Below, in pieces: positions 35,232 to 37,854 of a stretch of DNA of 64,000 bases. The first letter of the stretch is position 1; each line of letters starts with the position of its first letter. Source of the stretch: an uncultured Pelagibacteraceae bacterium (lineage in GTDB: Bacteria > Pseudomonadota > Alphaproteobacteria > Pelagibacterales > Pelagibacteraceae). Location of the stretch: contig CACOKI010000001.1 of the NCBI GenBank assembly GCA_902627735.1, positions 101,482-165,481 of the forward strand, written 5' to 3'. Both the position numbers and the translations under genes were made by a program. Below the pieces are notes generated by a model, which had not been told where the DNA came from, did no database searches, and saw only the letters and a program-made list of their open reading frames with translations.

Positions 35232-35678
35232 TTATTTAATCTCAATAAGTCTTTTTTTCTTATGATCCGGTAAAATTCTTTCGCAAGCTACTGTTAAAAG
35301 ACCATCTTTTAGCTGTGCACTATTTACTTTTACATCATCTGCAATTGTAAATGACCTAGCAAATTGTCTTTGTGAAATACCTCTATGAATAACTTCACCA
35401 TCTTCGTTTTTGTTTTCAGAATTTTTGACCTGTTTAGTTCTAACGGTCAATAAATTATCCTCAAACTCAACTTCAACATCATCTTTATTAAAACCGGCAA
35501 GAGCAACTTCTATTGCATAATTGTCCTTTCCTGTTTTTCTGATGTTGTATGGTGGATAATTTGACTGCATAGTCAAACCTCCATTGCCCAACATATTTTC
35601 AAATTGATCAAACATATCGTCAAAACCAATTGAAAAGGGTCTTAATGAGTTGAATATAGATAGATCCTTACTTGTCAT
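35232..35678 (-). CDS. Small heat-shock protein, Hsp20/IbpA type
   Basis: Alpha-crystallin-domain chaperone that holds unfolding proteins for refolding by DnaK/GroEL. The 148-residue protein has an N-terminal 'LSIFNSLRPFSIGFDDMFDQFE', the alpha-crystallin core about 38-130 ('YPPYNIRKTGKDNYAIEVALAGF', 'HRGISQRQFARSFTIADDVKV') and a basic tail. IbpA-like proteins of alphaproteobacteria match this arrangement. Its 5' leader has an RpoH-like promoter and a hairpin covering the Shine-Dalgarno site, so control by heat at two levels is likely. Confidence 0.95.
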   Translation of the reverse strand: MTSKDLSIFNSLRPFSIGFDDMFDQFENMLGNGGLTMQSNYPPYNIRKTGKDNYAIEVALAGFNKDDVEVEFEDNLLTVRTKQVKNSENKNEDGEVIHRGISQRQFARSFTIADDVKVNSAQLKDGLLTVACERILPDHKKKRLIEIK

Positions 35679-35684
35679 ATATAT

Positions 35685-35702
35685 CCTCCTTTTTTAAGCA
35701 AG
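35685..35702 (-). promoter_or_regulatory. Candidate ROSE-like RNA thermometer hairpin at hsp20
   Basis: On the minus strand the leader reads CUUGCUU-AAAA-AAGGAGG just before the AUG. The two arms pair as C-G, U-G, U-A, G opposite G, C-G, U-A, U-A, burying the whole GGAGG Shine-Dalgarno. A UUGCU motif facing the Shine-Dalgarno with a G opposite G is the hallmark of ROSE elements, known in leaders of small heat-shock genes of proteobacteria. An additional upstream hairpin (GCCU-AUUG-GGGC, 35716-35727) lies in the same leader. Confidence 0.65.
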
Positions 35703-35741
35703 TTTATTTATATAAGCCCCAATAGGCGACTTACTGATTTT

Positions 35742-35769
35742 AGATAAGAATTAATTAAATTTTTTCAAG
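35742..35769 (-). promoter_or_regulatory. RpoH-like (sigma-32) promoter of hsp20
   Basis: On the minus strand CTTGAAA (35769-35763) is followed after 14 bases by CTTATCT (35748-35742). This resembles the alphaproteobacterial RpoH pattern CTTGAA...CYTATNT. It lies immediately after the oligopeptidase stop and leaves a leader of roughly 55-60 bases. Confidence 0.55.
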
Positions 35770-35778
35770 ATGGAAAAA

Positions 35779-37854
35779 TTAAATTTTTTCAGAAATTTTT
35801 AGAGCAAATGCATAATCAAAAGCTATTTCTTCGATAGCACCATCACGACCTGATTTACCACCATGACCTGCGTTCAATTCTGTCTTAAGAAGAAGTAAAT
35901 TATTATCTGTTTTAAAATCTCTAAGCTTAGCAGTGAATTTTGTTGGTTCATCAAATAATACTCTATTATCACTTAGACTTGTAGTAATTAGCATGTGTGG
36001 GTAATCCATTTTTTTAATATTGTTATATGGAGCGTAAGAAAAAATATATTTAAAATGTTCCTCATTATCTTTTGCATTACCAAACTCATCGAATTCACCA
36101 ACTGTCAATGGTAAAGAATGATCGAGATTTGTTGTTAAAGAGTCAACAAATGGTACAGCCATGATTACTCCCAAAAAAAATTCAGGTGATTGATTAACAA
36201 CTGCCCCCATTAATAAACCTCCAGCTGATCCACCCATACCAATTATTTTTCCTTTAGATGAATATTTTTTTTCAATTAAATATTTTGCAACAAATATATA
36301 GTCTTCAAAAGTATTTTTTTTATTTAAAAGTTTTCCTTCTTTCCACCATTTCATTCCTTTTTCCATTCCGCCTCTTATATGAGCAGTCGCCCAAATAATA
36401 TCTCTATCAATTAAACTAAACTTAGTTGAGGAAAAATCTGGAGTCATAGAGCTTCCATAAGATCCATAACCGTATAAAAGTAAATTAGCCGATCCATCAA
36501 TTTTTGTTTTTTTATGCCTTGTTATTGTAATTGGAACGAGTCTTCCATCATGAGATGGACATTCTAATCTTTCCACAATGTAATCATCTGGACTATGACC
36601 TGATGGAATTTCTTGTTCTTTAATTAATTTTTTATCTTTCGTTTTTAAATTGTACAAATAAGTTTTATTAGGCGTTTTTGGAGAAGAGTAAGAAAGATAA
36701 ACTAAATCAGTATTTCTATCTCTTTGTATTAATGAAACACTTGGCACAATCACTTTTTCATCTGTAAAATTTAATTCTTCCTCAATTTCTGTTTGATTAT
36801 TTTTTACAAATAATTTTCCAAGAGCATTTGATTTTTCACCTCTAATGATCCAATTATTTAAGAAAATTAGACCACCAATAAGGGTTTCATTTTTAGGGGC
36901 AATGTATATTTCCCAATTTTGTTTTGATAAATCACTGCATTTTTCAATTTTAAAATCTTCCGCATTTTCATTAGTATGACAATAAAATAGACCATTCCAA
37001 GAATTTACAGAATAAATTATGCCCCTTTTTCTTTTTTTAATTAATTTTGGTTTTGGTTTACTTTCATTAACATCAAAATAGTACTGCTCAGATGTATTAT
37101 GATCGGAAGTGGTAATAAAAAAAAATTTTTCGTCTGAACTTAAGCTTATTCCGACAGTAAAGGCATCACTTTTTTCCTCAAAAATTAGTTCATCATTTTT
37201 AGGAGACGATCCTATTTTGTGTCTAAAAATCTTTCTAGGTCTATGAAATTCGTCTAGTTTTGAGTAAAAAAAATATTTATCATCTAAACTAAAGGTAATA
37301 CTTCCACTTGTGTCGTCTATTTTTTCAGTAATTAATTTTTCAGAGGAAATATCTCTTAAATATATTGTATAATACTCCGAACCTTTTAAATCTAAAGAAT
37401 AACCTAAATATTTATCATTGTAGCTAACCTCCAAATCTCCTACACCAAAATATTCAGTTTTTAATTTTTCTTTTTCTTTATCTCCATTCCAAATTTCTTC
37501 AACATTGTCAGAATTGAATTTTTTTCTAAGTTTTATGGAATAATTTCCTTCAGCAGTTGTTCTCGTCCAATATTCATACTGAGTGTCTTTGAATCTTAAA
37601 GATTCATCATTTAATTTTATTCTACCTTTTATTTCTTCAAATAATTTTTTTTGATACTCTCTAGTATCTTTTAAACTATATTCTGTATAACAATTTTCCT
37701 CTTCTAGATATTTTTTAACTTCTGGAAGTAGTTTTGAACTATCTTTTAAAACTTCCAGAATATTTTTTTGATGTACCCAACTATAATCATCCTCCCATGT
37801 GATATTGTGACAAGATTTTAACTCTGGTATTTTTTTAAGTTGTGGTATTTTCAT
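35779..37854 (-). CDS. ptrB: Oligopeptidase B (prolyl oligopeptidase family S9)
   Basis: Serine peptidase cleaving short peptides after basic residues, usually cytosolic. The 691-residue length and the two-part structure fit: N-terminal seven-bladed propeller (about 60-400) and C-terminal alpha/beta-hydrolase (about 410-691). The nucleophile serine is in 'GMGGSAGGLLMGA', the acidic residue near 'SLSDNRVLFDEP' and the His in 'NAGHGGKSGRDG'. 'LLYGYGSYGSSM' is another family marker. No signal peptide is seen. It diverges from the J-domain gene. Confidence 0.93.
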   Translation of the reverse strand: MKIPQLKKIPELKSCHNITWEDDYSWVHQKNILEVLKDSSKLLPEVKKYLEEENCYTEYSLKDTREYQKKLFEEIKGRIKLNDESLRFKDTQYEYWTRTTAEGNYSIKLRKKFNSDNVEEIWNGDKEKEKLKTEYFGVGDLEVSYNDKYLGYSLDLKGSEYYTIYLRDISSEKLITEKIDDTSGSITFSLDDKYFFYSKLDEFHRPRKIFRHKIGSSPKNDELIFEEKSDAFTVGISLSSDEKFFFITTSDHNTSEQYYFDVNESKPKPKLIKKRKRGIIYSVNSWNGLFYCHTNENAEDFKIEKCSDLSKQNWEIYIAPKNETLIGGLIFLNNWIIRGEKSNALGKLFVKNNQTEIEEELNFTDEKVIVPSVSLIQRDRNTDLVYLSYSSPKTPNKTYLYNLKTKDKKLIKEQEIPSGHSPDDYIVERLECPSHDGRLVPITITRHKKTKIDGSANLLLYGYGSYGSSMTPDFSSTKFSLIDRDIIWATAHIRGGMEKGMKWWKEGKLLNKKNTFEDYIFVAKYLIEKKYSSKGKIIGMGGSAGGLLMGAVVNQSPEFFLGVIMAVPFVDSLTTNLDHSLPLTVGEFDEFGNAKDNEEHFKYIFSYAPYNNIKKMDYPHMLITTSLSDNRVLFDEPTKFTAKLRDFKTDNNLLLLKTELNAGHGGKSGRDGAIEEIAFDYAFALKISEKI

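Follow-up and report, generated by a model that had tools for sequence, protein, structure and literature searches.

The leader of hsp20 in the window, the whole 64,000-nt stretch of Pelagibacteraceae DNA that was analysed, is very probably an RNA thermometer of the ROSE type, short and with only two hairpins, behind a sigma-32-type promoter, and we infer that it opens on warming. The earlier note, made from the letters of the window, had proposed a ROSE-like element in front of hsp20, and the proposal is supported by the ranking of Rfam families, by the ROSE motif U(U/C)GCU in 137 of 138 leaders, by the covariation of the first hairpin and by a sigma-32-type promoter. SAR11 bacteria rank among the ocean's most abundant cells and possess very few regulators. 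A heat switch that is conserved and encoded in RNA, combined with a sigma-32-type promoter, would, if true, provide them with a cheap and direct temperature sensor, and a thermometer in this leader would offer a defined molecular readout for studies of ocean warming.

The hsp20 locus and its leader

The upstream neighbour of hsp20 is a prolyl oligopeptidase gene (35779-37854), and the intergenic gap between the two genes is 100 bases. The hsp20 leader is 57 nt long (minus strand, 35734-35678) and contains both hairpins, with six bases between the Shine-Dalgarno (SD) arm and the hsp20 AUG, which starts at 35678. The parts of the locus, in the direction of transcription, are as follows.

35763-35769, minus strand: -35 element CTTGAAA of a sigma-32 (RpoH)-type promoter, seen in relatives at fixed spacing
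35742-35749, minus strand: -10 element TCTTATCT, in the position seen in relatives, with 7 nt between it and hairpin 1
35712-35734, minus strand: hairpin 1, GUAAGUC(G)CC-UAUU-GGGGCUUAU, with nine pairs and a bulged G at 35727, from pair counts and compensatory changes
35703-35711, minus strand: linker between the hairpins, A/U-rich and unpaired, varying in length and sequence among relatives
35696-35702, minus strand: anti-SD arm CUUGCUU with the ROSE motif U(U/C)GCU, from motif conservation
35692-35695, minus strand: AAAA loop of the SD hairpin, from the sequence
35685-35691, minus strand: SD arm AAGGAGG, predicted to be sequestered by the anti-SD arm, from sequence, folding and pair counts
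35232-35678, minus strand: hsp20, encoding a small heat-shock protein of 148 aa (PF00011 HSP20, 65.9 bits)

The letters CUUGCUU-AAAA-AAGGAGG, which the earlier note had read ahead of the hsp20 AUG, are present as claimed on the minus strand at 35702-35685. It had also placed a second hairpin, GCCU-AUUG-GGGC, just upstream; a hairpin does stand there, but the proposed pairing is merely the top of a longer 9-bp stem in another register. The size of about 45 bases given for the element was too small, as the element comprises about 57 nt with the 9-bp hairpin 1.

A covariance model built from 35 SAR11 hsp20 leaders (R1) gave one strong match in the genome to which the window belongs, on hsp20, where it scored 77.4 bits; no other site in this genome of 1.03 Mb scored above 18.3 bits. 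Among the 64 long ORFs in the window, U(U/C)GCU precedes a Shine-Dalgarno sequence in only one, which is hsp20. With the single-copy model match, the motif unique within the window and compensatory changes across the family, the hsp20 leader element is more than a product of chance.

An SD-like motif lies within 20 bases of the first ATG in five of the 64 long ORFs, a rough count that takes the start codons as called, and the strong SD of hsp20 is unusual for this window. Weak secondary matches in SAR11, including atpE leaders, a terminator that precedes a rhodopsin gene and others, were rejected, being without the U(U/C)GCU partner. The SAR11 atpE leaders (L288, L289, L292, L293, L294, L295, L296) have a strong SD, match R1 weakly without the motif, and contain a conserved hairpin of their own, AUGCAU..AUGCAU, that seems to lie where the upstream gene ends.

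Conservation and covariation of hairpin 1

In the family survey, 247 genomes of about 0.6-1.6 Mb each were searched with the Hsp20 protein, and hsp20 was present in 176 of them. Leaders were taken from 138 hsp20 loci, which represent about 12 of the family's genera. All nine pairs of hairpin 1 are formed in 124 of these leaders and eight pairs in 12 more, and U(U/C)GCU is absent from a single leader. In a covariation alignment of 100 leaders, fitted to the model, 98.9% of the hairpin 1 cells are paired, two-sided changes occur at seven of the nine pairs, and the structure as a whole has a covariation score of 0.310, compared with 0.169 when shuffled and at most 0.105 with the partners slid. 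When 68 disjoint nearest-neighbour pairs of leaders were used to limit shared ancestry, 112 of the 124 changed pairs in hairpin 1 were still paired. The two-sided compensatory changes in the same pairs numbered 35, whereas 500 permutations gave 3.8 on average and never more than 11; the count is slightly biased, since the register of hairpin 1 was set from the pairing on either side of a fixed GC[C/U] anchor. The comparison of SAR11 hsp20 leaders that the earlier note had suggested has thus revealed strong covariation of hairpin 1 together with near-universal conservation of the ROSE motif.

AT-rich leaders readily form weak hairpins, and a chance hairpin, or a signal acting at the DNA level, might be considered on this ground. 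Against it stand the covariation, the conservation and the single-copy specificity, which leave it a negligible probability, and for the family as a whole it is refuted by the comparative data.

Pairing of the Shine-Dalgarno hairpin

The SD hairpin is nearly invariant within the family, and on the sequences compared its within-family support is conservation, not covariation. GGAGG is found in all 53 leaders with CCUUGCU, while 25 of the 84 other leaders have GGAGA or GGAGU (Fisher p = 1e-6, uncorrected for relatedness), and all leaders with CUCGCUU have GGAGA. This association and this pattern together indicate that one G is bulged. In other families, compensation is seen in the SD hairpin, with the closing pair changing from C-G to A-U and further changes from U-G to C-G and from U-A to C-G. 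Across relatives, 98.0% of the cells are paired in the bulged-G register versus 76.7% with G opposite G, in a cross-family alignment that was fitted to the bulged-G model and leans towards it. The E. coli ibpA leader also folds in the bulged-G register.

The G opposite G described in the earlier note is indeed the minimum-energy register of the isolated window hairpin, but the relatives favour the bulged G, and G opposite G was rejected as the general structure by these pairing percentages. Both registers may be sampled in the window hairpin, for which the energy model is not decisive.

In some SAR11 leaders, GGAGU or GGAGA replaces GGAGG (L005, L006, L028, L050, L131, L133), and the GGAGU form has a lower computed hairpin stability. 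Such variants possibly tune the opening temperature among ecotypes.

Promoter and transcription start

CTTGAAA, a 13-base spacer and nCCCATAT were found in 120 of 137 leaders, and in 99 of these 120 exactly 7 bases lie between the -10 element and hairpin 1. Shuffled sequences gave lower promoter scores and no preferred spacing. The -10 element of the window is degenerate, nCCCATAT being the form in most relatives. CTTGAAA and nCCCATAT at 13-base spacing match the known sigma-32 consensus. The genome of the window encodes RpoH, which shares 71-73% identity with several named Pelagibacteraceae records, compared with 59-65% with other Alphaproteobacteria. The assignment to SAR11 (Pelagibacterales), which the earlier note had assumed, is well supported, and the genome is small. 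From the sequence, the likely transcription start is predicted to be 35734, where hairpin 1 begins, or a neighbouring base, and with a start at 35734 the whole leader would be the element.

Relationship to known ROSE elements

The Rfam search proposed in the earlier note returned ROSE (20.0 bits) and ROSE_3 (19.3 bits) as the best full-length matches of the leader among 4227 families, with both hairpins in register, though below the curated cut-offs. The gathering cut-off is 45 for ROSE (RF00435) and 43 for ROSE_3 (RF02523), on which relatives score 22.3-27.6 bits (27.6 in L110), and the window scans reported no match to ROSE_2 (RF01832, gathering cut-off 65). Since a search of the whole genome of the window with RF00435 was also empty, specific models were built. 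In a control, the E. coli ibpA leader scored 100.4 bits on its own model, ROSE_2, and merely 20.8 on ROSE_3, indicating that about 20 bits is what a ROSE of another subfamily scores.

The sequence and structural features of the ROSE class are found in the family leaders. Each is a 5' UTR right before a small heat-shock gene, as hsp20 follows all of them; U(U/C)GCU pairs with the SD in the 3'-most hairpin in all but one; this pairing is imperfect, in the bulged-G register and with compensation across other families; and a further 5' hairpin, hairpin 1, is present with nine covarying pairs. RF00435, the rhizobial hspA type, shares hairpin 1 with the bulged G, its GCC..GG top and the UUGCU/GGAGG hairpin, all aligned in register, whereas its middle region of 32 model positions is absent from the SAR11 leader. 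ROSE_2, as in E. coli ibpA, has the SD hairpin in the same register when folded, but contains an extra middle hairpin and has a stronger computed SD stem than the SAR11 leader; ROSE_3 aligns with the SAR11 leader over its full length.

The short ROSE of Pseudomonas ibpA consists of two hairpins in a 5' UTR of 61-62 nt, represses at 25 °C and opens at 42 °C (PMC3669281). Like the SAR11 leader, it has a stable hairpin first, a second hairpin in which U(U/C)GCU faces the SD, and a small heat-shock gene downstream (PMC3669281). By these shared features it is the closest known case, a likeness of anatomy and not a base-by-base comparison, the lineage and the sequence being different. The short size is accordingly not new, such elements being already known from Pseudomonas ibpA (PMC3669281). 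Judged by sequence and predicted structure, the SAR11 hsp20 leader belongs to the ROSE type, as a short form with two hairpins that falls outside the three families curated in Rfam. No prior report of the SAR11 element was found in the literature searched. A SAR11 RNA screen of 2009 covered only intergenic regions longer than 100 bp and above 26% GC, and heat shock is unmentioned in it (PMC2704228); a region of the size of the hsp20 leader could therefore have been missed.

Proposed mechanism and alternatives

Upon heat shock, RpoH would transcribe hsp20 from the sigma-32-type promoter. The transcript would begin at hairpin 1, a stable stem that, as in Pseudomonas, would stay closed and would probably protect or position the RNA. 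In the weak second hairpin, U(U/C)GCU would pair imperfectly with the SD, with one G bulged, and ribosomes would be excluded at normal sea temperatures. Warming would open the SD hairpin and permit hsp20 translation.

For 92% of leaders, folding at 25 °C is predicted to hide the SD core, compared with 26% when the upstream part is shuffled. In folds of the leader from 10 to 40 °C, the predicted SD pairing hardly changes and melting is gradual, and alternative folds compete when the coding sequence is included. Near-constant predicted pairing is what would be expected of a leader that permanently damps translation and stabilises the mRNA, with hairpin 1 shielding the 5' end, the SD hairpin merely lowering translation and temperature playing no role. 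However, the leader of E. coli ibpA, a proven thermometer, is equally unchanging when calculated in this way and still appears closed at temperatures up to 50 °C. Vienna melting was rejected as a test of thermometer function on account of this failed positive control, and the small predicted change with temperature is no argument against the function. The restriction of the element to hsp20 and rpoH and its place behind a sigma-32-type promoter in the family also speak against a permanent damping leader, which appears very unlikely.

The computed energy of the SD hairpin of the window is -4.1 to -3.5 kcal/mol at 20-25 °C, and that of E. coli ibpA is -4.1 to -3.4 kcal/mol at 37-42 °C. Taken from energy rules alone, this match would suit a thermometer in a cold-water organism.

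Another explanation is that the leader is mainly a putative binding site for Hsp20, with free Hsp20 repressing its own translation until aggregates withdraw it. In that case protein aggregation would be what is sensed, whether or not the RNA also melts. It is reported that E. coli IbpA binds and represses ibpA via the 5' UTR and requires Arg93 to do so, and the same paper notes the conservation of Arg93 and Tyr34 among the IbpAs of Alphaproteobacteria (PMC10474464). An alignment with E. coli IbpA places equivalents of both residues in the window Hsp20, and the Arg93 equivalent occurs in essentially all of the 58 full-length relatives checked, the lone flagged exception (L137) reading AKR and having been overlooked by the search pattern. 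Conservation as strong as that of hairpin 1 would also fit a protein site. However, the second hairpin of the Pseudomonas element is able to sense temperature in isolation from hairpin 1 (PMC3669281). A leader serving mainly as an Hsp20 site seems improbable. Autorepression by Hsp20 and melting of the RNA are compatible and may act together.

ROSE-like elements on rpoH

In 385 genomes of the class, R1 gave 14 matches outside the family, of which nine are on hsp20 and three on rpoH start codons, and targeted R1 searches added two more rpoH cases. A broader model (R2), one building row of which (L157:2002-2053) is probably spurious, detected more cases on rpoH, in families f22, f39, f91 and f95 and in three named bins of uncultured Alphaproteobacteria. 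The element lies directly on the rpoH start in L161, L165, L166, L300, L301, L302, L303, L304 and L307 and in the named bins (L202, L203, L204). Ten of these RpoH proteins were checked, and all ten pass the NCBIfam sigma-32 subfamily model. Hairpin 1 of the rpoH leaders keeps the bulged G, and its stem covaries in 12 rpoH leaders.

Some class-wide matches were judged false, namely a terminator-like hairpin before an ABC-F gene (L163), a match before a CstA-like gene (L164) and L308/L311, where there is no gene.

The distribution of the element appears to be exclusive, as no such element was found in the SAR11 rpoH leaders checked, and none of the 14 hsp20 loci (L312-L325) in nine genomes with the rpoH element carries it. 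ROSE elements are described in a review as always associated with small heat-shock genes (PMC4166951), and in the literature searched rpoH is undescribed as a ROSE-like target in this class. The present cases, for rpoH from few sequences, make it likely that ROSE-type thermometers are not confined to small heat-shock genes; in the lineages examined they stand on hsp20 or on rpoH, one without the other, as if moved between the effector and the master regulator. The leader covariance model fills a gap in Rfam for this lineage and also leads to these elements on rpoH.

In two of the hsp20 loci from genomes with the rpoH element (L314 and L315), UAGCUU..AAGGAG precedes the start and might be a reduced version of the element.
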